Shown: positions 5,106 to 33,504 of the stretch, in pieces | Layout of the letters: each line of letters opens with the position of its first letter | How positions within the stretch are numbered: the first letter of the stretch is position 1 | Assembly (NCBI GenBank): GCA_025934495.1 | Contig: JAICXY010000031.1 | Coordinates: forward strand, 1-33,504 | Reading direction: 5' to 3' | Source of the DNA: Candidatus Nitrosocosmicus sp. | Lineage (GTDB): Archaea > Thermoproteota > Nitrososphaeria > Nitrososphaerales > Nitrososphaeraceae | DNA: 33,504 nucleotides | Notes under the pieces: generated by a model | Seen by the model: only the letters and a program-made list of their open reading frames with translations | The model's database searches: none | What the model was told of the DNA's origin: nothing | Translations under genes and position numbers: made by a program

Positions 5106-6230
5106 ATGCCAGCAAACATTCTCGGTGAACGATTTTCAATTACAAGCTTTGGAGAAAGTCATGGCAAATGTATTGGTACAATTGTTGATGGATGTCCAGC
5201 TGGCCTAAAACTAGACGAATCCGATATACAACCTTTATTAAATTTAAGGAGACCAGGTCAATCCGTAATTACAACACAGAGAAAAGAAACAGATCAAGTT
5301 TCAATATTATCAGGAGTATTCCGCGGATATACTACAGGTGCTCCTATCTGTTTAATAATTTGGAATACTGATTCCGACTCAAGATCATATGATGAAATTA
5401 AGAATACTCCACGACCAGGACATTCAGATTATCCCGCATATTTGAAGTACGGTGGTTTTGCAGATTATCGAGGAAGTGGGAGATTTTCTGGGCGTTTAAC
5501 TGCGACTTTAGTAATGGGGGGAGCTGTAGCATTAAAAATATTATCAAAATATTTGAATATCGAAATAATCAGTTATACTCAGGCCATAGGAAACATAATT
5601 TGTAATACTGACAACATATCATTTGATGAATTATCTCGTAAAAGATATTCAAACGATGTACGGTGTCCGGATCATGAAATTGCCATAAAAATGAAAGAAG
5701 ATATACTAGTAGCAAGAAAAGCTGGTGATTCTCTTGGTGGTATTATAGAGTGTACTACCAAGGGTATTCCACCTGGCCTTGGAGAACCTATTTTTGAATC
5801 GATTGAATCGGAATTGTCTAAAGGACTTTTTAGTATTCCAGCGGTTAAGGGAGTCGAATTTGGCTCAGGTTTTATAGGATCGAGTCTCAAAGGTTCGCAA
5901 AATAATGATATATTTTATATCGAAAAATCATCTGGGAAAATTTTGACATTAACTAATAATTCTGGTGGGATACTCGGAGGTATAACTAATGGTATGCCCT
6001 TAAAAATCAGAATCGCATTCAAACCCGCAGCATCTATATCAATGTCACAAAAAACAGTAAATATTGAAAAGGGAGTCGAAACAGATCTACATGTCAAAGG
6101 AAGGCATGATCCATGCGTTGTTCCAAGAGCTCCTCCTGTTGTTGATAGTATAGTTGGTATAGTATTATTAGATCATTGCATCAAATGTAATTTAATACCA
6201 CCAGTTTTAAAGGAATTGCATAGTAATTAG
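5106..6230 (+). CDS. aroC: Chorismate synthase
   Basis: Removes phosphate from EPSP to give chorismate, using reduced flavin. The 374-aa product has the expected landmarks: FGESHGKCIGTIVDGCPAG at residues 15-33 with the catalytic His, RRPGQS, the FMN-binding RPGHSDYPAYLKYG, DYRGSGRFSGRLTA near residue 122, NSGGILGGITNGMPL near 281, and the C-terminal GRHDPCVVPRAPPVVD. The length is normal for the family. The ATG start is unambiguous (MPANILGERF). The next gene begins 8 bases later, so the two are co-transcribed: chorismate is handed straight to the mutase fusion downstream. Confidence 0.96.
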   Translation: MPANILGERFSITSFGESHGKCIGTIVDGCPAGLKLDESDIQPLLNLRRPGQSVITTQRKETDQVSILSGVFRGYTTGAPICLIIWNTDSDSRSYDEIKNTPRPGHSDYPAYLKYGGFADYRGSGRFSGRLTATLVMGGAVALKILSKYLNIEIISYTQAIGNIICNTDNISFDELSRKRYSNDVRCPDHEIAIKMKEDILVARKAGDSLGGIIECTTKGIPPGLGEPIFESIESELSKGLFSIPAVKGVEFGSGFIGSSLKGSQNNDIFYIEKSSGKILTLTNNSGGILGGITNGMPLKIRIAFKPAASISMSQKTVNIEKGVETDLHVKGRHDPCVVPRAPPVVDSIVGIVLLDHCIKCNLIPPVLKELHSN

Positions 6231-6237
6231 AAATGAG

Positions 6238-7749
6238 GTGGATGAAATCAAAGTGACTTTAGATAAATTAGATGATTTAAGATATCATATGAAAACAGTT
6301 ACACAACAGATAGTAACATTGATTAACCAAAGAATGGAAATTGCCAAAAAAATTGGCGAAATAAAAAGTGAATTAAATCTTAATATAGTTGATGATAAAG
6401 TTGAACAAGAAATTAGAAATTTTATTTTGCATAATTCAGATAATAAAGGATTGGACCCTGATTTTTCCGGTCGTATTCTAAATTTGCTTATAAATGAATC
6501 AGTGATGATTCAAAATTATGAAAAAAACAAAAAGAAATTATTGCTTGATTCCGTCTCGAATAAAGATAAAGCATTTTTGATAGATGATAATTTAAAAAAT
6601 AGGGAGGATATCCCAATCAACCTAAAAATCCGGACTCATATGGATGTATTTAATAAAGCAAAACAATTAGATTCTTTAGGTAAAAAAATTATTCATATGG
6701 AAGTTGGTGAACCTGATTTTTCTCCACCTCCTCAAGTAAAGGACGAATTAAGATTGATTTATGACAAACACAGATATCATTATACCGAAACTGCTGGTAT
6801 AAGTGAACTTAGAAAAGAATTATCATATTATTTAGCTCAATTGAGTGAGAATAAATCAAATTCTCCTAATCCTCGAAATATTATGATAACAGTAGGTGGC
6901 AGATTTGCAATTTTCTGTACTTTTTCAGCAATACTTAGACCCGGTGATGAAATTATAGTAATAGAACCTGCATGGCCTGCATACAAAGATTGTGCTAATT
7001 ATATGGGTGTTAAAACAAAAATTATTAGGACAAATCTTGAAGAAAATTGGGAACCTGATATTTCGGTAATTGAAGGTTCTATAAATATAAATACCAAAAT
7101 AATTTGTCTTAATTATCCGAATAATCCTACTGGAAAAATTTTAAGTGAAAATATCATAAAATCAATAATTCATTTGGCAGAGAAAAATAATTTATATATA
7201 TTAAGTGATGAAGTTTACTGTAATTTTGCTTATAAAAAATTTTCGAGCATAGTAAAGTTTCCTTTTCAGAATGCCATTATGATAGGTTCATTTTCAAAAA
7301 CTTACTCCATGACAGGTTTTAGAGTTGGTTTTGCGTATTCAATAAATAGAGAATTAATTGATAAATTAATTAAAATTCAGTCTTTATCTTTAACATCTGT
7401 ATCTGAGCCAATGCAGTACTGTGCTTTAGCTGCATTGTCATTCAATTCAGTCGAATATGCTCAGATAATGAATAGAAGGATCGATTTTGTGTGCTCGAAG
7501 TTAAAAGATATGCCTTTTGAATTTAACTATCCTGATGGTGCCATGTATGTATTTGCAAAAATTAATGAAGAAATAAATATAGATGATTTAACACTAATTG
7601 AAAAATTGTTAGAGAGAGGAGTTGCTGTAGCACCTGGAAGTGGGTTTGGAAATACCTATACAAAGTATATTAGAATTTCTACTTGCAACAATGAAGAAAA
7701 TTTAAACAAAGGCTTGGACATTATTAATCAATTAGTATCTTCATTATAG
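6238..7749 (+). CDS. Chorismate mutase (AroQ) - aminotransferase fusion
   Basis: Two domains in 503 aa. Residues about 5-95 form an AroQ helical chorismate mutase (LDDLRYHM, LINQRMEIAKKIGEIK, a later ISGR-like SGRI...IN helix) making prephenate. After a Lys/Asp-rich linker (about 95-125), residues 130-503 are a fold-type I aminotransferase: HMEVGEPDFSPP, TVGGRFAIF, EPAWPAYKDCA, NYPNNPTGKI, LSDEVYCNF, the PLP lysine in GSFSKTYSMTGFRVGF, and RISTCNNEEN. It probably transaminates prephenate or aromatic 2-oxoacids, given the neighbours. The substrate is inferred. The start is uncertain: GTG 6238 lies inside a GAGGTG sequence, which could instead be the Shine-Dalgarno for GTG 6253 (MTLDKLDD). tyrA follows 35 bases later. 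Confidence 0.88.
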   Translation: MDEIKVTLDKLDDLRYHMKTVTQQIVTLINQRMEIAKKIGEIKSELNLNIVDDKVEQEIRNFILHNSDNKGLDPDFSGRILNLLINESVMIQNYEKNKKKLLLDSVSNKDKAFLIDDNLKNREDIPINLKIRTHMDVFNKAKQLDSLGKKIIHMEVGEPDFSPPPQVKDELRLIYDKHRYHYTETAGISELRKELSYYLAQLSENKSNSPNPRNIMITVGGRFAIFCTFSAILRPGDEIIVIEPAWPAYKDCANYMGVKTKIIRTNLEENWEPDISVIEGSININTKIICLNYPNNPTGKILSENIIKSIIHLAEKNNLYILSDEVYCNFAYKKFSSIVKFPFQNAIMIGSFSKTYSMTGFRVGFAYSINRELIDKLIKIQSLSLTSVSEPMQYCALAALSFNSVEYAQIMNRRIDFVCSKLKDMPFEFNYPDGAMYVFAKINEEINIDDLTLIEKLLERGVAVAPGSGFGNTYTKYIRISTCNNEENLNKGLDIINQLVSSL

Positions 7750-7784
7750 GTATTAATTATATCTAATCAATTACCTGAAGAAAA

Positions 7785-8735
7785 ATGGGATATACTTTAA
7801 CAATAGTCGGTGCTGCAGGAAGAATGGGAAAATGGTTCTTCGAATATTTCAATATTATAAAAAATAAGGCTTATCATTCAAATATTAATTGCAGTTTAAT
7901 CATTGATAAAATACTGCTTTATGATATAAGAGAAATAAACTATTTAACAAATTATAATGATGAGAATATAGTTGTCATAAATGATGTTTCTAAATCAATC
8001 AAAACATCTGATATTATCCTATTCTGTATTCCTATTAATGATATTATATCAACGATTCGGAATAATATTACATTATTTAAACCTGGATCAATAATTATTG
8101 AGATATCATCAATCAAAACAGCGATTCATAATATTTTATTAGATATTTCTATGGATAAGAACGTGGTGACATTATGCATACATCCTATGTTTGGTCCTGG
8201 TGCTTCCATTTTTTTTTCAAATAAGATTATATTTATACCAGTTTATAAAAATAATTACCAGGCCGAAAAAAATCTTTTGAACAAGATATTCCCCTATTTC
8301 GAGAAAATTATCATTGAAGAACCAGACAAACATGATTTGGCTATCGCTGTTATTATTAGTTTGATTTATTTTATTAATTTGGTTTTTTCCAAATTTCTAC
8401 TAGATTTATCTACCTCAAAAGAATTTAAATTCGAAGATAATCTAATGCATTTTTTTAAAAAAATATCTGGAAGTACGTTTAAAATTCAATCCTTATTAAG
8501 TGAAAGCATTTTAACCGATGATATTTCACTTTTTTTGTCTCTTTTTATTAATAATGATAAATCTCTTAAAACAATTAATGCATATAGTCGTCTCTTTAAC
8601 CAATTGTTAGAAAAGATAGAAAAAAAAGATATAGATTTTATAAAGGATTATATAGCATCAACCAAAAACGGCATTTTAAAGGATATTGACATCTACAAAT
8701 CTTATGACATATTATATAAATTTTTAAATTCTTAA
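7785..8735 (+). CDS. tyrA: Prephenate (or arogenate) dehydrogenase
   Basis: Oxidative decarboxylation of prephenate, or arogenate if transamination comes first, toward tyrosine. The 316-aa product opens with the Rossmann motif IVGAAGRMGKWF near residue 8, continues with DIILFCIPIND near 87, EISSIKT near 114 and the family marker HPMFGPGA near 137, then a helical C-terminal dimerisation region with several Lys-rich helices. No ACT domain is visible. It lies directly behind the chorismate mutase-aminotransferase fusion, fitting the same branch. The C-terminal half (about 190-316) is diverged, so whether the substrate is prephenate or arogenate cannot be read from the sequence. Confidence 0.88.
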   Translation: MGYTLTIVGAAGRMGKWFFEYFNIIKNKAYHSNINCSLIIDKILLYDIREINYLTNYNDENIVVINDVSKSIKTSDIILFCIPINDIISTIRNNITLFKPGSIIIEISSIKTAIHNILLDISMDKNVVTLCIHPMFGPGASIFFSNKIIFIPVYKNNYQAEKNLLNKIFPYFEKIIIEEPDKHDLAIAVIISLIYFINLVFSKFLLDLSTSKEFKFEDNLMHFFKKISGSTFKIQSLLSESILTDDISLFLSLFINNDKSLKTINAYSRLFNQLLEKIEKKDIDFIKDYIASTKNGILKDIDIYKSYDILYKFLNS

Positions 8736-8759
8736 ATAAAATATCAATGAATAAAACAA

Positions 8760-8773
8760 CATAATATATAATC
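8760..8773 (+). promoter_or_regulatory. TATA box for ilvC
   Basis: CATAATATATAATCC lies about 26 bases upstream of the ilvC ATG at 8793, the expected distance for a leaderless archaeal transcript. It lies in the 57-base gap after tyrA, so ilvC probably has its own transcript rather than being only an operon member. Confidence 0.55.
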
Positions 8774-8792
8774 CAGTTTTTATTTTTAAACT

Positions 8793-9797
8793 ATGGTTAC
8801 AAGAAAATGGTTAGATAATGAGGTATCATTAGATCCAATTAAAGAACTAACAGTTGCAGTTATAGGATATGGAATTCAGGGATCTGCCCAAGCTTGTAAT
8901 ATGAAAGACTCAGGCATCAATGTCGTAGTCGGTTTGAGACGCGGAGGAAAAAGCTGGACCAAAGCTGAGACAGATGGTCATAAGGTTATGTCAGTTACTG
9001 ATGCTGTTAAGCAATCCGATATTATACATATCCTAATACCAGATATGGAGCAAGAAAATACATTTAGAACTGATATCAACCCTTTCCTATCTGACAATAA
9101 AACGATAAGTTTCTCTCATGGTGCCTCAATCCATTGGAAATGGATAGTTTCCCCTAAAAATGTTGATATAATCATGGTTGCACCAAAAGGCCCTGGTCAA
9201 AGAGTCAGAGAACTCTATCTTGATGGATTTGGAACTCCGTCACTTGTTGCAGTCCATCAAGATTATTCTAAAAAAGCGTGGGATAAAGTACTTGCATTAG
9301 CGAAATCTATAGGCAGTACTCGGCCTGGAGTTATAGAAACTAACTTTAAGGAAGAAGTTGAAACTGATTGGTTTGGTGAACAGGTTGACCTCTGTGGAGG
9401 GGTTCATAACATGATAATAAAATCATTTGAAACTCTTACTGAAGCTGGATATCAACCTGAAATTGCTTATTTCGAATGTTTACATGAATTAAAGCTCATT
9501 GTAGATTTAATTCAGAAATATGGCATTGCAGGAATGTATAATCGAGTTAGTGAGACTGCTAGATATGGCGGGCTTACTAGAGGCAAAAGAATAATAGACC
9601 AAAACTCAAAGAACAACATGAAACAAGTATTAGATGAAATCCAATCTGGGCAATTTGCGAAAGAATGGGTTGATAATTACAGAAAAGATAGCAAAATCGC
9701 ATTTGCCAAATTACTTGAAGAAGTAGAAAACCATGAAATTGAAAAAGTCGGCAAAGATTTAAGAAAAATGATGTGGCCTAGTGACACAATAAATTAA
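8793..9797 (+). CDS. ilvC: Ketol-acid reductoisomerase, class I
   Basis: Isomerises and reduces acetolactate or acetohydroxybutyrate in valine, isoleucine and leucine synthesis, using NAD(P)H and Mg2+. The 334-aa length is typical of class I. Seen: VAVIGYGIQGSAQA near residue 22, RRGGKSW in the cofactor-specificity loop near 49, HILIPDMEQ, SFSHGASIHW (catalytic His) near 109, VAPKGPGQRVRELY near 129, the metal-binding DWFGEQVDLCGGVHNMI near 192, and FECLHELKLIVDLI near 228. It is in an aromatic amino acid block but belongs to the branched-chain pathway; no other ilv gene is in the window. Confidence 0.96.
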   Translation: MVTRKWLDNEVSLDPIKELTVAVIGYGIQGSAQACNMKDSGINVVVGLRRGGKSWTKAETDGHKVMSVTDAVKQSDIIHILIPDMEQENTFRTDINPFLSDNKTISFSHGASIHWKWIVSPKNVDIIMVAPKGPGQRVRELYLDGFGTPSLVAVHQDYSKKAWDKVLALAKSIGSTRPGVIETNFKEEVETDWFGEQVDLCGGVHNMIIKSFETLTEAGYQPEIAYFECLHELKLIVDLIQKYGIAGMYNRVSETARYGGLTRGKRIIDQNSKNNMKQVLDEIQSGQFAKEWVDNYRKDSKIAFAKLLEEVENHEIEKVGKDLRKMMWPSDTIN

Positions 9798-9816
9798 GAT
9801 ATTGTCAAGTTTATTA

Positions 9817-10257
9817 TTATTTTTTTACATTATTTCGTATATGATTTATAATTATTTGAAGACTTGTTCCAGGTCCAAAGTTTCCAGTAATACCTTCATT
9901 TTCTAATGCCTTTTTATCGGATTCTGGAATAACTCCTCCTCCAACCAATAATATATCATGGATATCTTTTTCTTTAAATAATCTTGATACTTTTGGAAAT
10001 ATTGTAAGATGTGCTCCGTTTAACAAACTCATTGCTACTACATCTACATCTTCCTCTATAGCTGTTTTAACAACTTGCTCCGGGGTGCAAAACAAACCTG
10101 AATATATTACCTCCATTCCAGCGTCTCTTAAAGCCCGACAGATAACAAGTGCACCCCTATCATGACCATCTAAGCCTAATTTGGAAACTAAAATTCTTAT
10201 TTTTTTTTTAGATGAAAAATCCGATTCTTGCTGATGCATTATTGATGAAGTAGACAT
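9817..10257 (-). CDS. mcmA2: Methylmalonyl-CoA mutase, B12-binding (alpha C-terminal) subunit
   Basis: A stand-alone cobalamin-binding subunit of 146 aa. It carries the base-off B12 motif LGLDGHDRG near residue 28 (DxHxxG), SLLNGAH near 82 and GGGVIPESD near 105, the usual order for these domains. It pairs with a separate catalytic subunit, not in this window, to interconvert methylmalonyl-CoA and succinyl-CoA. In Thaumarchaeota this serves the 3-hydroxypropionate/4-hydroxybutyrate carbon-fixation cycle; the assignment to that cycle is inference from lineage. It is convergent with ilvC with only 19 bases between the stops, including a T-rich run that may terminate ilvC. Start is ATG. A TATA-like stretch lies about 28 bases upstream on the minus strand. 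Confidence 0.92.
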   Translation of the reverse strand: MSTSSIMHQQESDFSSKKKIRILVSKLGLDGHDRGALVICRALRDAGMEVIYSGLFCTPEQVVKTAIEEDVDVVAMSLLNGAHLTIFPKVSRLFKEKDIHDILLVGGGVIPESDKKALENEGITGNFGPGTSLQIIINHIRNNVKK

Positions 10258-10520
10258 ATACTAAAATATAATAATAGAGGAGATTAAAATATTTTTTATC
10301 CCATTACTAATATTATCTGATATCATTTAAGAAAGTTGCAAAATTATTAGTATCAAACAATATAGTTATATTATAAATTTTAGATGATCGGGTTAGTCAT
10401 AATTTCAAAATTATCTATCTTTATCTGGAGTTTCATACCGACCAATACCTAGCATATATTTTATTGATTTTATATCAAATTTGCCTGCTTTCTAGTTAAA
10501 ATATGCATATATTTAGCGGA
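10258..10520. other. Intergenic region upstream of mcmA2
   Basis: An AT-rich gap of 263 bases. The part next to 10257 holds a minus-strand TATA-like sequence (AATATTTTA, near 10286) that probably drives mcmA2. No other gene, RNA fold or repeat was recognised. Confidence 0.35.
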
Positions 10521-10667
10521 TCATTTTTTTAGACAGTCATTACAAATCCAGACATTATTAACGTATTTACCTTCTTTAATTATGCCTTCTTTTTCTACTT
10601 CTGGTTCTACCTTATCTATAACGTGCACTCCGCATATATTGCAAGAAGGTAGGACATTTTTGACCAT
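10521..10667 (-). CDS. Tiny zinc-ribbon protein (48 aa)
   Basis: An open frame from ATG (CAT at 10665-10667) to TGA encodes 48 aa. It starts MVKNVLPSCNICGVHV, runs through an acidic middle (VEPEVEKEG) and ends VWICNDCLKK. Two CxxC pairs (CNIC near 9, CNDC near 42) spaced about 30 apart are a treble-clef or zinc-ribbon arrangement. It is too short for usual gene callers. A zinc-binding role follows from the motif; the function is unknown. Transposase relic B begins about 100 bases downstream on +, and the gene could be either an independent small gene or a truncated remainder of a longer one, but the clean start, motif and stop favour a real small protein. Confidence 0.5.
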   Translation of the reverse strand: MVKNVLPSCNICGVHVIDKVEPEVEKEGIIKEGKYVNNVWICNDCLKK

Positions 10668-10767
10668 AAAACAGTTTAAGAAACAATCATTTTTAAGAGT
10701 TTACATACCAAATGAAGACATCAATCAAACTACAGTCATAAAGAAGAATAATTATAATTTAAAATAA

Positions 10768-11225
10768 ATGCTCTAAAGTACGATATTATTTCTTTATTGT
10801 AATAATCAACAAATAGATTCAACCAATTGATACATGCTTTAATTTACATTTCTTTTTTCTACATTGAAAATAATCATCAATCCCTTCTGTTCTGTCTTTG
10901 ATGTATTGCATTATTCTTTCAGCAATACTTTTTTCAAATGAGGAATGAATATGATGTTTTAATTTTAAAAAGTGACAGGGTTGAGATATCATATACTACA
11001 TCTGTTGAAACAGGATGTCGACCATGTTTATCTACAACTTTTGAAATAAATCGATCAGCGACAAACATATTTCGTTCTTTGGATATGCTTATTCCGAGGA
11101 TTTCTTTACTTTCAGATTCGATAGCAATCTAAAACCATATCAATTCAGAGCCAACTTTAATTAGAGTTTCATCAATTATGAATTCAGATATTTTGATCTT
11201 GGTCTATGATAATAGTCTCCTATCA
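10768..11225 (-). pseudogene. Decayed IS6-like transposase (relic B)
   Basis: On the minus strand the order of a DDE transposase can be read through stops and shifts: KISEFIIDETLIKVGSELIW, a stop, then ESKEILGISISKERNMFVAD, then KHGRHPVSTD, and further on AERIMQYIKDRTEG and DDYFQCRKKKCKLKH. DET, the later Asp (STD) and the downstream Glu (AER) are placed like a DDE triad. The same segments are found in relics A, C and D. The C-terminal end is degraded after KLKH. The family is best matched to archaeal IS6-like elements from the ends of the better-preserved copies. Dead copy. Confidence 0.65.
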
Positions 11226-11712
11226 AATGAACGTTTACTGCATGATATTATTATAATACTACAGGCTATTGCTAGTTTACGGTTATACTGACAGCAGTCT
11301 ATCATAAGAAAAATATGTAATGCATTATTGGGATCGATTTTAAACCAGATTAGTGCATTAAAGCATCTCAAAATTACAGTAGGCGAATATACATACGGTC
11401 TACCATATTTTCCTCTTGGGATACTAGGCCATGGTATACACCGTATCAGATACAGAATGTTGAGTATGGATTCCTTTAATCTATCAAGATTTTATCTTTG
11501 GGACAGTATTAATCAAAATCATATCTCAAGGATTATCTTTAACCAGTATGACTGCGTTGAAAATGGATTTGAATTGAAGCCCATATAAATAACTGAATAA
11601 TTAAATCAAAAATCAATAAAATAATGGTGGAGCATATACCCGGAGATCCATGATAGAGACAAATGATTTGGAATTGTATCAAGGCTCAACCAATTAAAAA
11701 ACAAATGACATC
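11226..11712. other. Region without an intact gene, upstream of relic B
   Basis: A + strand frame at 11328-11588 stays open for 86 codons but does not look like an intact protein. Its start, LKITVGEYTYGLP, resembles the opening of CatB-like hexapeptide acetyltransferases; the rest (IHRIRYRML and following) does not continue the fold. It may be a decayed acetyltransferase fragment or chance. Nothing else is recognised between relic B and aIF5A. Confidence 0.2.
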
Positions 11713-12105
11713 TTATCCCTTGACTCGGACTATTTTAATTCTATCAAGCACTTTCCAATATTCCACTTCTCCACCTTGAGTAATTTTATCCCGAATTTCG
11801 TCTTCTACGGCAGAAGTTTCAAATACTTCAAAAGATTCCAAATCCATAATTTGCAGCGTTTGACCTGATAAAGAAATTATTTGACCATTTTTTTTATTGA
11901 TAAGCGGAACATCTACATTTGCAGAGACCGGGGAAACGAGACTATGCCTTGAACCATCAAATACCCCAATAGCAGCTACTCTAGCTTTTGCTGAACCATG
12001 TTTACCTGGTTTACTATGATCATATGATACAATTCTACAAGGTTCTCCATCAATAATAATATAAGATCCAACTTTCAAACTACCTAGATCCATGGGTTTA
12101 CTCAA
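11713..12105 (-). CDS. eif5a: Translation factor aIF5A (hypusine-containing)
   Basis: Archaeal homologue of eIF5A/EF-P, which binds the ribosomal E site and relieves stalling at difficult peptide bonds. The 130-aa product has the hypusine loop KPGKHGSAKARV, with Lys35 the expected modification site, then the SH3-like and OB-fold domains (VDVPLINKKNGQIISLSG, LQIMDLESFEVFE, VEYWKVLDRIKIVRVKG). The length is normal. The first codon is TTG at 12105; an in-frame ATG lies four codons later at 12093. A minus-strand TATA-like box (GTTAAATATCC, near 12138) is close upstream, so both starts remain possible. No deoxyhypusine synthase gene is in the window. Confidence 0.95.
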   Translation of the reverse strand: MSKPMDLGSLKVGSYIIIDGEPCRIVSYDHSKPGKHGSAKARVAAIGVFDGSRHSLVSPVSANVDVPLINKKNGQIISLSGQTLQIMDLESFEVFETSAVEDEIRDKITQGGEVEYWKVLDRIKIVRVKG

Positions 12106-12240
12106 TAATATTCAAAAAAATGGAATTAGGAAGGATATTTAACAGTTATGATATTTGAGTTTTCTCTTCCTAAAGTAAAAGTAGTATCATAAATTTTTTT
12201 AAATAATGTATTAGATCTCGTATAATTAGAAACAACCAAT

Positions 12241-12272
12241 GGGTTCTGTTCAATTAAGGGACATGGGAAATA
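12241..12272 (+). repeat. Left terminal inverted repeat of the 12241-15603 element
   Basis: Begins GGGTTCTGTTCAATTAAGGG and continues ACATGGGAAATA. It matches the reverse complement of 15572-15603 with two mismatches (positions 3 and 12). Confidence 0.85.
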
Positions 12273-12362
12273 TTACAGACCACACACATATTGTCATAAT
12301 CATTATATTCTATAAATTTTATAATATTTTGTCCAATATCTTTAGATAATTCCATCGACTTC

Positions 12363-13091
12363 TCATAAATACTTAATATCTGCAATAAATTCCGTGAATT
12401 TTTTCTTGATTTCATCAAGTTCTTTTAAATCATTTATAAGATTTTTAACTTTTACTTCATTTTCCTTACTGTATATGGCGATCTCTCCATGACCCATCCC
12501 AGTAGGAATTCCTAATGAGTCTCCATAACGAGTAACAGGTATATCACTTTTATCTCCAAACCAATATGATATCAATTCCGGTAGTAATATCGATAAATTT
12601 ATTGTTTTTGGGGGAGTAACAGTATTAGAATCATAAGTTACTTCAAAATCCTTCTCAATTATATAATTAGATACATGTCTTTTTATTAAATCATCATTGA
12701 ATTTACGGCGTTTCGTTTCATACTGACTTACTTTTTCTTTTATTTCATTCAGCCTTGGTAGAAATTTGTCTATATATTTTTCTAAGTGTTCGAGTCCATC
12801 GTCATAATAGATAGATTCAATAATTTGGGAAGCAGTAAATGTGATTATAGGAAAATTACCTTCGGGCATCTCGATATTAATAATGTTTTGATATAATGGA
12901 TAAAAAATTTGGTCGTTCAATACCCTATGTTTCGTATGAATCTGTTCCAATCTCTTATCCGAGACAGATTTTTCTTTAATTTTTGATTCCCTTTGTAAAT
13001 TTAACATTTCAATTATTCCGTTCATAGTACCTAGCAACGCTTTGATAGTCTCTCCATCTATTTCGAATCCATTCGTATCCACTAAACTCAT
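12363..13091 (-). CDS. Unknown coiled-coil protein, passenger gene (242 aa)
   Basis: Not recognised. The product is hydrophilic and mostly helical: residues about 25-60 are charged (RESKIKEKSVSDKRLEQIHTK), followed by LNDQIFYPLYQNI, a long heptad-like stretch at about 112-150 (LPRLNEIKEKVSQYETKRR), a central LSILLPELISYWFG, a Gly-rich turn GIPTGMGHGEIAIYS near 200 and a terminal amphipathic helix pair. No membrane segment or enzyme motif is visible. The start is ATG at 13091; a longer frame using TTG at 13094 adds one residue. A TATA-like stretch (TATATATAAATTT) lies about 33 bases upstream. It is divergent from the transposase and just inside the left repeat, so it travels with the element. 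Confidence 0.75.
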   Translation of the reverse strand: MSLVDTNGFEIDGETIKALLGTMNGIIEMLNLQRESKIKEKSVSDKRLEQIHTKHRVLNDQIFYPLYQNIINIEMPEGNFPIITFTASQIIESIYYDDGLEHLEKYIDKFLPRLNEIKEKVSQYETKRRKFNDDLIKRHVSNYIIEKDFEVTYDSNTVTPPKTINLSILLPELISYWFGDKSDIPVTRYGDSLGIPTGMGHGEIAIYSKENEVKVKNLINDLKELDEIKKKFTEFIADIKYL

Positions 13092-13243
13092 CAAAGATCT
13101 TGAGAAGATTGGTCATTGTTAAAAATTTATATATACTGTAATTCATTCAAAGCTTTATATATAAACTAGAAAGTAGTTAATAGCTTTAACTGTTCAATAT
13201 AAATGTATCTTATACTATCCATAACTTTATATATCTGATATAA
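13092..13243. promoter_or_regulatory. Divergent promoter region between passenger gene and transposase
   Basis: The 152-base spacer is rich in TATA-like boxes on both strands. Minus-strand TATATATAAATTT near 13120-13132 fits the passenger gene. A perfect 12-base palindrome, TTTATATATAAA, lies at 13154-13165, and ACTTTATATATCTG at about 13219-13232 sits 12 bases before the transposase ATG, nearer than ideal for TATA. The palindrome could be an operator for the element's RHH-like protein; this is a guess. Confidence 0.4.
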
Positions 13244-14119
13244 ATGAATTGCAAATACTGTAACTCGAATAATGTCGTAAAAAACGGCAAGAAGTTCGAC
13301 CTTCAGAGATATAGTTGTAAGAACTGTAATCACAAATTCTATGATAATAATTCGAATCTTCCTAGAATGAGAAGTAATACCAAAATCATAGTTATATCTC
13401 TTAATTTATATTATAGTGGACTTTCGATGAGGAAAGTAGTAGAACAAATAGAAATCATATTTGAAGAACATCTTTCTCATTCTACCATCCATTACTGGAT
13501 TCATAAATATGCCTCTCTTGTAAAAGACTTTGTTGATACCCTTAAACCAGAACTATCTGGTAAATATCATCATGATGAAACTGAAATAAAGGTTGACGGA
13601 GAGGGAAGATATTTCTGGGAGACAATTGATGAAGATACTCGATTTATAGTTGCAAGTTTATTGACAGAAGAAAGGACGAGCGAAGATGCAATCAAAGTTT
13701 TCAGACAAGCATTGGATAAACAAAGACCAGCTGCCTTTTTTACCGATGGTTCATTTGCCTATGATGAAGCATATAATAAGGTATTTTATTCTAGGTTCAA
13801 GTCTGCAAAAGTTGAATGGATTAGAAGAGTAGGGATAAAGGCAAGAGAAACAAACAACATGGTAGAAAGGCTTCATGGAACATTCAAAAACCGAGTTAAA
13901 CCAATGAGAGGACTTAAAAATGATGAATCTTCCCAAGAGCTTCTTGATGGATATGTAATTAACTATAACTTTTGTAGGAAACATTCTGTGATCAAAACTA
14001 CTCCAGCTGAAATGGCAGGCTTGCAGGAAGTAAAAGGATGGCAACAACTTATAGAAAAATCACAGTATCATAAAGTAGAACAAAAGCAGACAAAAATTGT
14101 AGAGGTAGAAGCTCAATGA
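13244..14119 (+). CDS. IS6-like DDE transposase with N-terminal zinc ribbon
   Basis: The 291-aa product appears intact. Residues 3-31 form a zinc ribbon (CKYC, CKNC) for DNA binding, about 40-85 a helix-turn-helix-like region (GLSMRKVVEQI, SHSTIHYWIHKY), and about 105-255 an RNase-H-fold catalytic core: first Asp in HHDETEIKV near 109, second Asp in FFTDGSFAYDEA near 166, Glu in NNMVERLHGTFKNR near 205. The C-terminus has YNFCRKHS and TPAEMAG, then a Lys/Gln-rich tail. This matches archaeal IS6-family transposases with zinc ribbons. The stop overlaps the next start in an ATGA, so a second protein is translationally coupled. No disruption is seen, so it may be active. The surrounding element is larger than a plain IS6. 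Confidence 0.9.
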   Translation: MNCKYCNSNNVVKNGKKFDLQRYSCKNCNHKFYDNNSNLPRMRSNTKIIVISLNLYYSGLSMRKVVEQIEIIFEEHLSHSTIHYWIHKYASLVKDFVDTLKPELSGKYHHDETEIKVDGEGRYFWETIDEDTRFIVASLLTEERTSEDAIKVFRQALDKQRPAAFFTDGSFAYDEAYNKVFYSRFKSAKVEWIRRVGIKARETNNMVERLHGTFKNRVKPMRGLKNDESSQELLDGYVINYNFCRKHSVIKTTPAEMAGLQEVKGWQQLIEKSQYHKVEQKQTKIVEVEAQ

Positions 14120-14421
14120 GACGAGCCTTAGTATCACTACCTGATGGAGTATGGAACATTATTGATACCGATTTGAAGGGTCAAATTGGTGACGGTGATT
14201 CAGAAGTAATTAGGAATTTAGTTATTGCATATCTGACTGAAAAAGGTTATTTACTTAAAGGAAAAAAAGTTGGTAATGAACATGTAAATACAGAACAGAT
14301 AGCATCAGAACTTGATGTTCATGATACAATGATTACCGCTTTAACAGAACTACTAGAAGAAAAAGGACAACTGAACCCTGAAGAATGGGAGAAAAGAGTA
14401 CAGAAGAAATTACATCAATAA
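14116..14421 (+). CDS. RHH-like DNA-binding protein coupled to the transposase (101 aa)
   Basis: A small protein whose ATG overlaps the transposase stop by 4 bases (ATGA), indicating translational coupling. Residues 2-45 (RRALVSLPDGVWNIID, SEVIRNLVIAYLTEKGYL) match the beta strand, helix, SEVIR helix pattern of CopG-like ribbon-helix-helix proteins. Residues about 60-95 form acidic helices (TALTELLEEKGQ, PEEWEKRVQKKL) that could contact a partner. An RHH protein usually represses its own operon or, less often, serves as an antitoxin; here it may control transposition. The fold is inferred from the pattern, and the role is a guess. IS6 elements normally lack a second gene. Confidence 0.68.
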   Translation: MRRALVSLPDGVWNIIDTDLKGQIGDGDSEVIRNLVIAYLTEKGYLLKGKKVGNEHVNTEQIASELDVHDTMITALTELLEEKGQLNPEEWEKRVQKKLHQ

Positions 14422-14448
14422 TATCTCTATACAACAACAAAATAAATT

Positions 14449-14460
14449 CTTTTATATGGT
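14449..14460 (+). promoter_or_regulatory. TATA box for the 14479 operon
   Basis: TCTTTTATATGG lies about 25 bases before the ATG at 14479, suitable for a leaderless transcript covering the three small genes to 15557. Confidence 0.5.
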
Positions 14461-14478
14461 TTTTTAATCTACATTATT

Positions 14479-14865
14479 ATGAGTCAAGTGGAAATTTTTA
14501 CTTCCCAAGATTCGTCTAATAATAGGTTGAAACTTGAATCTACAGTTATTGATACTAGAGAATATAATAAATATCATATAATAATACAGAATGATAATCA
14601 GCAAGATGTATCTTCTGTAAATGTGGTGAAAAGATGGTTTAGTTTAGAAATATTTAACGAGCCTATCAGAATAGAAATAAAAAAGCCTGTATATGTATAT
14701 AAAGATGATTCAGGAACTGAGAGTGTTTATTATAATAGTCGATTGATGAAAGATGGGCACTTATATGAAATAGAATGGAAAGGATCAAAATGGGCACTTA
14801 AGAAAACTGATAATGAGGTACAATTTATTGAATGGAAATCTAATGAAAATTGTGAATCAGAATGA
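14479..14865 (+). CDS. Unknown passenger protein (128 aa)
   Basis: Not recognised. A soluble, charged protein with no membrane helix. The middle looks beta-rich (YHIIIQ, FSLEIFNEPIRIEIKKPVYVYKDDSG, YEIEWKGSKWAL, EVQFIEWKS), suggesting a small beta-sandwich or barrel. The ATG start has a well-placed TATA box, and the stop overlaps the start of the following small frame in ATGA. It is the first gene of the right-hand passenger operon. Base composition is like its neighbours. No signal peptide. Function unknown. Confidence 0.7.
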   Translation: MSQVEIFTSQDSSNNRLKLESTVIDTREYNKYHIIIQNDNQQDVSSVNVVKRWFSLEIFNEPIRIEIKKPVYVYKDDSGTESVYYNSRLMKDGHLYEIEWKGSKWALKKTDNEVQFIEWKSNENCESE

Positions 14866-15093
14866 GTGTTGAGGCCAACTCCGAAATAAACGTATCTGTT
14901 ACTGGAGACTTAACTAAGTGGCGGTTTTAAATATCAATTTAGCCAACCATTAATTCTTAAGAACTGTGAACATCATATACAGACGAAAGAAAGTAAAAAT
15001 ATATTTAAGAAGAAAGAAATTTGGAAGATAATTACACATGGACAGGAAAACGGCGAGTGTAAAGTTGCAAAACATTGTTTGAAACTGAATTAA
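14862..15093 (+). CDS. Small passenger gene needing a +1 frameshift (about 76 aa)
   Basis: ATG at 14862 overlaps the preceding stop (ATGA). The frame runs 22 codons (ending DLTKWRF) to TAA at 14928. Slipping one base forward on the T run joins KYQFSQPLILKN and continues without a stop to TAA at 15091-15093, six bases before the next ATG. The exact layout, an overlap upstream and a tight gap downstream, suggests one gene of about 76 aa. The site reads TTT followed by TAA, where a Phe-tRNA on TTT could re-pair on TTT one base on. Alternatives: a T-run sequencing error (one T fewer restores the frame) or a real disabling mutation. The protein itself is not recognised. Confidence 0.5.
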
Positions 15094-15098
15094 AAAAG

Positions 15099-15557
15099 AT
15101 GGAATCTATAGATATAATTGAAAACAGAATTAAAGATATGGGTTATCTAGTGGTAAAACCAATTAAAGTTTTACCTAGTTATTATGAATTAAAAGATGAA
15201 TCAATACTAGAGGTATTACTTAGGATAGAGACTGTTATTAAGGATAAAAACAATCCTACGGGTTATTTTATCAATACTTCTAATACAACAAGAGCATATA
15301 TTCATACAAATAAACGAGATCCAACAAAATTTGTAAATTATACTGCTGCTGACTTAGCAAGCGGAATAGTAGATCAAGATGTAGATTCAAAAGAATTATT
15401 TTCGGATTATAATGAATATGAACTTTCTAATGGAATATTGATAAAAATTAAACCCATAGTTAGTCAAATACGAAAAACAAAATTTTATTCACAAGACGGT
15501 GAACCAATCTACATAGTATCAATTACCTCAATGATGAAACATATAAACAAAAAATAG
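15099..15557 (+). CDS. Unknown passenger protein (152 aa)
   Basis: Not recognised. From the ATG at 15099 the product is 152 aa; the frame is open further upstream to a TTG at 15075 (eight residues more), but that start overlaps the preceding gene's end, so the ATG is preferred. The protein is soluble, with a helical start (IDIIENRIKDMGY), a central GYFINTSNTTRAYIHTNKRD and YTAADLASGIVDQDVDSKE, and a C-terminal basic IKIKPIVSQIRKTKFYS. No catalytic motif is evident. It ends 14 bases before the right terminal repeat, placing it as the last gene of the element. Confidence 0.68.
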   Translation: MESIDIIENRIKDMGYLVVKPIKVLPSYYELKDESILEVLLRIETVIKDKNNPTGYFINTSNTTRAYIHTNKRDPTKFVNYTAADLASGIVDQDVDSKELFSDYNEYELSNGILIKIKPIVSQIRKTKFYSQDGEPIYIVSITSMMKHINKK

Positions 15558-15571
15558 AAATCATATTTCTT

Positions 15572-15603
15572 TATTTCCCATGTCCCTTAATCGAACAGAA
15601 GCC
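15572..15603 (-). repeat. Right terminal inverted repeat of the 12241-15603 element
   Basis: On the minus strand this reads GGCTTCTGTTCGATTAAGGG then ACATGGGAAATA. It differs from the left repeat at two of 32 positions. Confidence 0.85.
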
Positions 15604-15935
15604 GTTTATTCAATCAAACTAAAGAACATGATACAGAATATGATGCTAAAAGCATCATTGTATATCATGATGATATCCATTTAGACAAAACAGATGATAG
15701 TAAAATCAGAGTATAGGAATCTTACAACAAAGCAATCTTATAGATCTGTTTATTCTAATTATGCAAGAGATCTATTAAATACAAATTAGTAAGATTCGTC
15801 AGGCAGATTGGATATTAGAATTTTATGGATAAATTAGTAATAACCGATTTTTACAAAAAATGTAGTTTTTGGAAATTATAAAATAAAGGTCAAATTGTGA
15901 TCAATTTAAATAGAATTTAAATTCATATTATTTAA
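15604..15935. other. Region between element and site-2 protease gene
   Basis: Directly outside the right repeat a + frame is open from the junction to TAG at about 15713, reading FNQTKEHDTEYDAKS and IVYHDDIHLDKTDD. It has no start on this side and may be the 3' end of a gene cut by the element, but no matching 5' part is visible left of 12241. The rest is AT-rich, with a TATA-like TTTAAATTCATATTA before the 15936 start. Confidence 0.3.
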
Positions 15936-23737: not shown

Positions 23738-24423
23738 ATAACTGTTAACTTAAGGTGTCATCTTCCATGGTGTTGGTCAACTAATAGATTAAACCATTGT
23801 TTCACATACATAGGTTTACATTTGTTCATCTTGAAAGGAAAATAATCATCAATTTTCGATTCTATCCTTTAGATATTATATTATTATTTCAATAATGCTT
23901 TCTCATAAGTAAATGGATATTATGCTTCAGTTTCAGGAATCTACAGGCTTGAGGTGGATAAAACGTACCAACGTCTGTTGAAATAGGGTGCTTTCCATGC
24001 TCTTTTATAACATTTAAAATAAATCGTTCGATTACTACAAACATTTTACGTTCTTTTGATACGCTGATTGAGAAAATTCTTTATCTTTTGTTGGTTCGAT
24101 AATAACCTAAAATCACATTAAACTAGATCCAGCTTTAATTTGAGTTTCATCAATTTCATACTCCTCATTTTTCTTATTCTCTTTTGATATTTTCTTTGGT
24201 TTGTACTTTTGTATTCTTGAACCCGGTCCAAATATAACATGAAGACTTATCTAACTAGATGTAAAAAATAAAGATACTGCTTTTGCAACGTTTCTGAATG
24301 ATGAACCAACAAGGTACAGATATACTTCATAACCGATAATTTGTGAATATGTGGGCTGTTTTTAAATATCATAAAAAGAGATGGTCCTTTTCAATATATC
24401 GGTTTTTCCCTAAATTAAGAGCC
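23738..24423 (-). pseudogene. Near full-length decayed IS6-like element (relic C)
   Basis: On the minus strand the element starts near 24423 with GGCTCTTAATTTAGGG and ends near 23738 with CTGTTAACTTAAG (plus-strand reading), about 686 bp in all. Between them the transposase can be followed through stops and frameshifts: YLYLVGSSFRNVAKAVS, then IQKYKPKKISKENKK, EYEIDETQIKAGS, IIEPTKDKE, ACRFLKLKHNIH, DDYFPFKMNKCKP. Its left end and N-terminus match relic E, its core relics A and B, and its right end relic D. This copy best defines the family ends. It lies between metG and egtD. Confidence 0.7.
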
Positions 24424-33363: not shown

Positions 33364-33504
33364 GGCTCTGTTAACTTAAGCCCTTATTCCTCTGTTATAG
33401 TAGCAAACAAATAGGTTTAACCAATTTCTTATATGCTTTAGTTTGCATTTCTTTTTTCTACAAGGAAAATAGTCGTCAAAGCACTCGGTTCTATCCTTGA
33501 TATA
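33364..33504 (-). mobile_element. Intact C-terminal end and terminal repeat of an IS6-like element (relic D, runs off window)
   Basis: The minus strand, from the window edge, reads YIKDRTECFDDYFPCRKKK, then HIRNWLNLFVCYYNRGIRA, to TAA at 33376-33378, 42 codons without a break. The + strand end GGCTCTGTTAACTTAAG starts at 33364 and fits the terminal repeat of this family; the stop lies within it. It is the best-preserved C-terminus of relics A-D and could be part of an intact copy continuing beyond 33504. Confidence 0.65.

Follow-up and report, generated by a model that had tools for sequence, protein, structure and literature searches.

An apparently undescribed type of cargo-carrying IS6 transposon in ammonia-oxidizing archaea

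Introduction

In a contig of Candidatus Nitrosocosmicus sp. (JAICXY010000031.1, assembly GCA_025934495.1), two inverted repeats enclose an IS6-like transposase gene together with five other genes, and the question that this locus raises is whether all of them form one mobile unit. Usual IS6 elements measure 700-890 bp and contain the transposase only (PMC7986276). We analyzed the whole stretch of 33,504 nt, here called the window, and conclude that positions 12241-15603 are very probably an IS6-family unit transposon with cargo. Comparison with relatives shows that the ends, a gene core and the cargo act together as one unit and generate 8-bp duplications.

Results and discussion

The element is 3363 bp long and contains, besides the transposase gene (T), five other genes that we call A, B, C, C2 (broken) and D. 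Its ends and the genes T and B are the following:

12241-12272, forward strand: left terminal inverted repeat, 32 bp, GGGTTCTGTTCAATTAAGGGACATGGGAAATA
13244-14119, forward strand: T, intact gene for an IS6-family DDE transposase of 291 aa with an N-terminal zinc ribbon (NCBIfam, Pfam, alignment)
14116-14421, forward strand: B, core accessory gene of 101 aa, with a 4-bp ATGA overlap with the T stop
15572-15603, reverse strand: right terminal inverted repeat, 32 bp, matching the left repeat at 30/32 positions

The initial annotation had described 32-bp inverted repeats around 3.36 kb, and this was borne out: the likeness between both repeats ends abruptly at base 32, and the end motif, searched in the whole window with up to three mismatches, occurs at two sites, which are the two ends of the element (shuffles expect 0.00). 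Both ends read GG(G/C)TTCTGTTC..., with the GG tips and the cTGTt motif of IS6-type ends. The proposal that small IS (insertion sequence) relics nearby share the end pattern is not supported, since the window holds no further end of this type even allowing seven mismatches; such relics lie elsewhere in the genome (contigs C37, C24 and C159). Related repeats of the families D1-D4, D6 and D7, located in the window at 53-234, 10818-11177, 23779-24214 and 33406-33504, are probably relics of another IS family. The element has one transposase gene and a single pair of inverted ends, and not the two IS copies flanking the cargo that characterize a composite transposon.

The transposase had been read as intact, IS6-like and bearing a zinc ribbon, and it is so. 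T passes the NCBIfam IS6 model NF033587 (134.8 bits, cut-off 125), matches Pfam PF13610 (DDE_Tnp_IS240, 2.4e-20) and keeps the zinc-ribbon cysteines C3, C6, C25 and C28. Furthermore, the triad D111/D168/E208 is invariant, together with R209 and R217, in an alignment of 41 transposases, which corresponds to the IS6 arrangement of a DDE triad followed by K/R. Passenger genes are also carried by the IS1595 family, with which the element shares an IS1/IS1595-type zinc ribbon; the catalytic domain here, however, is that of IS6/IS240, and no IS1595-family transposase model matched T, the only such match being the N-terminal zinc domain NF050000.

The gene B was surveyed in 151 genomes from the same GTDB order of ammonia-oxidizing archaea. 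It adjoins T in 17/17 close relatives of T (at least 45% identity, the window not counted), and no adjacent B accompanies some 100 other IS6 transposases that share 29-41% identity with T. These last exceed T in length (most have about 370-450 aa) and bear a SWIM zinc finger plus a zinc ribbon, as checked by profile in one of them and by eye in others. The zinc ribbon + B and the SWIM groups were split with full support in a tree of 41 transposases. Because B stands next to all close relatives of T, it is a core gene and not cargo; and since minimal elements with T and B exist (1868 and 1891 bp, 22/22 ends; L168 and L169), the remaining genes are optional. In one branch of the B clade (L069, L071), B is divided into two small open reading frames (ORFs). 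The protein looks like a ribbon-helix-helix DNA-binding protein, a likeness that lies only in its strand-helix-helix sequence pattern. B gave no significant Pfam match and no PDB sequence match, its AlphaFold model was poor (pLDDT 61), too poor for a fold search, and only one RHH_1 gene was found in the genome, which is not enough to compare B with such genes by profile.

Copies of the element and the empty locus

The initial annotation had proposed looking for other copies with the same boundaries, for the same gene set elsewhere and for relatives without the element at this locus, and the three were found. In the same genome, contig C37 carries a decayed element of 1334 bp that has the same ends and a perfect 8-bp duplication (CTATTTTA), and in which B is broken. 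In G137, another species of the genus, contig C102 carries a 1498-bp element without T, both of whose ends are identical over 23 bp to the left end in the window; it contains a portion of B followed by C, C2 and D, the last frameshifted, and is flanked by the duplications CTATTATT/CTACTATT (7/8). A second contig of G137 presents the same end, followed by A. In addition, C-D in G129 and D in G267 were observed beside a different IS6 transposase. As regards the locus itself, the window element sits between the genes for aIF5A and an M50 protease, amid a stack of older IS relics, and the gap between both genes, of 149-576 bp, is element-free in 13/13 other genomes of the genus that have the two genes.

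These copies also bear on the possibility of an ordinary small IS6 inserted beside resident host genes, with the outer repeat being a second relic. Single ends of the element's type are indeed present in the genome (C24, C159), and the distant homologues of D are host genes in the genus. However, the same ends enclose C, C2 and D again in G137, the coding frame of A terminates inside the terminal repeat both in the window and in G137, and the relatives have both flanking genes without the cargo, all of which makes this explanation very improbable.

Related units in ammonia-oxidizing archaea

The search for inverted ends and direct 8-bp duplications around the transposase delimited 21 IS6 loci with perfect duplications, of 2.2-6.9 kb and all in one GTDB order, 7 of them of the zinc ribbon + B type and 14 of the SWIM type. 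The former measure 2769, 2892, 3125, 3476, 3627, 3634 and 4356 bp and have ends of 17-20/20. The latter comprise 13 units of 2179-6928 bp, two of which have ends of 14/20 only but with GG-CTG tips, plus one of 3260 bp that came from another search. The SWIM clade had been taken in as the expected size control, and proved to have the same cargo-carrying layout. Ends of at least 17/20 with a perfect 8/8 duplication were found at 18/48 loci searched, and at 0/48, even at 14/20, when the left flank of one locus was joined to the right flank of the next; these hybrid flanks were used as control because inverted ends and duplications survive sequence reversal, which is thus uninformative for this purpose. 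In further elements (L076, L078, L167, L172, L174 and L189) the ends are perfect or nearly so, but a perfect duplication is missing. Among the hosts that have a name, uncultured Nitrososphaerales and relatives predominate, and Nitrososphaera sp. L.E.AR.1 is also present.

Another reading of the window element would be the remnant of a pseudo-compound IS6 structure, in which two IS6 copies flanked host genes and one of them was reduced to an end. Such behavior is known for IS6 (PMC7986276), the window copy is without target duplication, and nested IS relics surround it. Nevertheless, IS6 compound transposons have directly repeated ISs (PMC7986276), whereas the outer ends of the window element form an inverted pair belonging to a single unit; moreover, more than 20 related elements combine a layout with one transposase and perfect 8-bp duplications at the outer ends. 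Since the duplications surround whole units, the pseudo-compound origin is disfavored, and we consider it very unlikely, if slightly less so than the insertion of a small IS6 beside host genes.

Three further loci should be mentioned. L088, of Candidatus Diapherotrites SKW289, contains at 9718-13524 an element of 3807 bp with 20/20 ends and a perfect duplication (GTTAAAGT); it has B-like genes, no more of the transposase than a fragment, and a pair of large ORFs which by eye resemble a radical-SAM-type protein and a tyrosine integrase. L086, a candidate of 5502 bp from Aenigmatarchaeota with 17/20 ends, was discarded because its ends are A+T-rich and cut through ORFs. At L228 (G267:C9, 5839-9754), a SWIM-type IS6 unit (5847-9106) lies in tandem with a 632-bp element without T (9115-9746), and the 8-bp target TTAAAAAG is present there three times, as though a single target had served twice.

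Cargo genes

The cargo genes of the window element are the following:

12254-13094, reverse strand: A, coiled-coil type, frameshifted near the 3' end (ORF 12363-13094 plus a tail in another frame, 12254-12418)
14479-14865, forward strand: C, ORF of 128 aa
about 14862-15090, forward strand: C2, frameshifted, starting on the ATGA of the C stop
15075-15557, forward strand: D, 160 aa, beta-rich model

At least five genes other than the transposase had been counted as cargo. This holds for A, C, C2 and D, two of them (A and C2) frameshifted, and not for B, which belongs to the core. Both frameshifts were called against homologues of G137: the intact A (L054:5855-6718) runs on into a stretch that the window copy has in a different frame, and the intact C2 (L053:2733-2969) has 78 aa. 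A homologue of A, at 29-31% identity, was also seen without flanking ends of this transposon type at L072 (G079:C8, 4080-4880), near an ORF with a histidine-kinase-like ATPase domain, and two tandem C-D pairs occur in a GC-rich genome (L227, G246:C1, about 2112637-2121159), with no IS6 transposase detected nearby.

That all the cargo was unrecognized, as had been said of it, remained true in the libraries tried. A, C and D have no significant Pfam match, and A has none in PADLOC (C and D were outside the PADLOC scan), so no defense family was recognized among them, in contrast with sister elements, which do match such families. The model of D is confident and beta-rich (pLDDT 91), and its fold has no significant structural match in PDB or in the viral library. 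The initial annotation had also considered a virus or plasmid derivative, that is, an integrated replicon that acquired an IS6 transposase, and a cargo without recognized family is in line with this, as is one virus contig with a single similar end beside two unknown genes (L234). Against it, none of A, B, C, C2 and D matched a PHROG below E = 0.03, B and T are without relatives in IMG/VR, the matches in the plasmid collection were limited to distant IS6 transposases (less than 60% identity), and the window element lacks genes for replication, capsid or integrase. This origin was therefore not supported, and it is the least probable of the explanations considered here. In L234 (IMGVR_UViG_3300033977_000275), a tailed-virus contig by its portal protein (PHROGs), the IS6-type end lies at 6661-6683, and no partner end was found in it.

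Across the family the cargo varies from unit to unit, but three sets were each met again beside a distantly related transposase: a GHKL-ATPase set (L059 and L079), an Ntn-hydrolase gene (L187 and L190), and D or C-D, present in the B clade (window and L053 of G137) and in the SWIM clade (G267 and G129; L228/L229). In G083, two elements share the T-B core at 97.6% over 1286 bp and are different outside it. Among the genes carried we observed an AbiV/HEPN protein (L180, 5.6e-13), an N6/N4 methylase with a weak Mrr-like part (L182), an Eco57I/type IIG restriction-modification protein (L186), an IetS-like subtilase (9.1e-39) adjoining a weakly PD-(D/E)XK-like protein (L061) and a response regulator (L194). 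Genes unrelated to transposition inside one IS unit are what defines a tIS (an IS with passenger genes), and here they vary between units that have duplications and recur across transposase lineages. The cargo of the window element probably gives some selective benefit and, as several sister elements carry defense-family genes, defense would be a plausible one.

The flanks and the missing duplication

Two older sequences adjoin the window element:

12204-12235, no strand given: resembles the terminal repeat of another IS of about 1.06 kb (L132, L133), with a partner end at about 15753-15785
15604-15736, forward strand: 3' part of an IS5-type transposase relic, 133 bp, with about 40 matching places in the genome

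The IS5-type homology, so labeled by reading and not by profile match, starts at the first base beyond the right end (15604) and reads as the C-terminal part of the transposase. Since in other copies this transposase extends upstream of that point, the right end of the element cuts an older IS. On the other side, the left end lies within 6 bp of the repeat resembling that of the 1.06-kb IS. The genome contains about 40 decayed pieces of one IS5-type transposase, and several of them adjoin other IS ends.

IS6-type elements are known for adjacent deletions. The absence of a duplication, together with a right end that cuts the IS5-type relic, makes a later adjacent deletion likely: the element would have inserted into older nested ISs, and the DNA next to its left end would then have been lost with the target duplication, so that the left side was probably trimmed by this event. 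The stack of older IS relics and the two broken cargo genes show that the window copy is old.

It should be noted that some observations weigh against a unit transposon at this locus. The target duplication of the window copy is 0/8, the intergenic sequence of the relatives is too diverged for an exact empty site, and two cargo genes (A and C2) are frameshifted. In the wider family, about half of the examined transposase loci were not delimited by a perfect duplication, and no copies were identical over the whole element, the best being the T-B cores of the two elements in G083; consequently, recent activity is unproven.

For the cargo-carrying unit we propose the following mechanism. T would recognize the ends, of about 20-32 bp, and join them to the target DNA, as expected from its family, and this joining would make the 8-bp duplications that relatives display. 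B, translated from the T stop, forms the core with T, and its most likely role is that of a small DNA-binding protein which regulates T or helps at the ends. The genes between the core and the ends, here A, C, C2 and D, are cargo that travels with the ends and, as comparison shows, passes between transposase lineages. IS6 transposition is replicative, with host-mediated resolution (PMC7986276). Among the elements delimited in this archaeal order, none has a recognized resolvase-like gene, and thus, if transposition is replicative like that of IS26, the cointegrates would be left to host recombination.

Comparison with known systems

An undescribed archaeal transposon type, as the initial annotation had suggested, is well supported, and it is broader than guessed there, since it covers at least two IS6 transposase clades. 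We found no description of such cargo-carrying IS6 elements in the open-access literature; apparently, they make up an undescribed and widespread set of cargo-moving IS6-type elements in ammonia-oxidizing archaea, with antiviral defense in some of the cargo. On balance, and with some reserve, we favor the more general view that the IS6 transposons of these archaea are as a rule cargo-carrying units that swap cargo between clades, that they are a main vehicle for defense and accessory genes, and that B is a core partner in one clade. The elements described here provide a simple route for moving accessory genes (restriction-modification, AbiV, IetS-like) between ammonia-oxidizing archaea, and they raise the question of how an IS6 transposase, thought to form cointegrates, can mobilize a unit of 3-7 kb without a resolvase.

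With the IS6 family (IS26, IS257, archaeal clades A) these elements share a transposase over the IS6 cut-off, GG-tipped cTGTt ends and, in the relatives, 8-bp duplications. They differ from it in their length of 1.9-6.9 kb with B and/or cargo, far from the simple organization of about 0.7-0.9 kb and one gene, which neither the window element nor its relatives present, and in a transposase with a zinc ribbon or SWIM plus zinc ribbon. An extra zinc-binding N-terminal domain and long transposases are also found in IS6 clades h and i, which we compared by description only; clade h, however, is from Clostridia, with listed lengths of 1230-1460 and 1710-1760 bp and no cargo stated (PMC7986276), and the elements here are archaeal and carry cargo. 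ISDsp3 of Dehalococcoides BAV1 is the single IS6 member named with a passenger gene by Varani et al. 2021 (PMC7986276), and shares the combination of an IS6-type transposase and a passenger (the tIS concept). It is one element with one hypothetical gene, unlike the many described here with exchangeable cargo of several genes, a distinction drawn by description only. Tn7-like transposons with defense cargo (PMC8649781) are similar as unit transposons with variable, defense-rich cargo, but they use TnsABC instead of a single IS6 transposase, and no Tn7-like transposase was found in archaea by Benler et al. (PMC8649781). Finally, Krupovic et al. 2019 (PMC6563490) describe the IS-like transposons of thaumarchaea as typically made up of one or two genes, and state that no composite transposon carrying passenger genes had been detected in archaea. 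The elements described here contradict, as general pictures, both this view and that of Varani et al. 2021.

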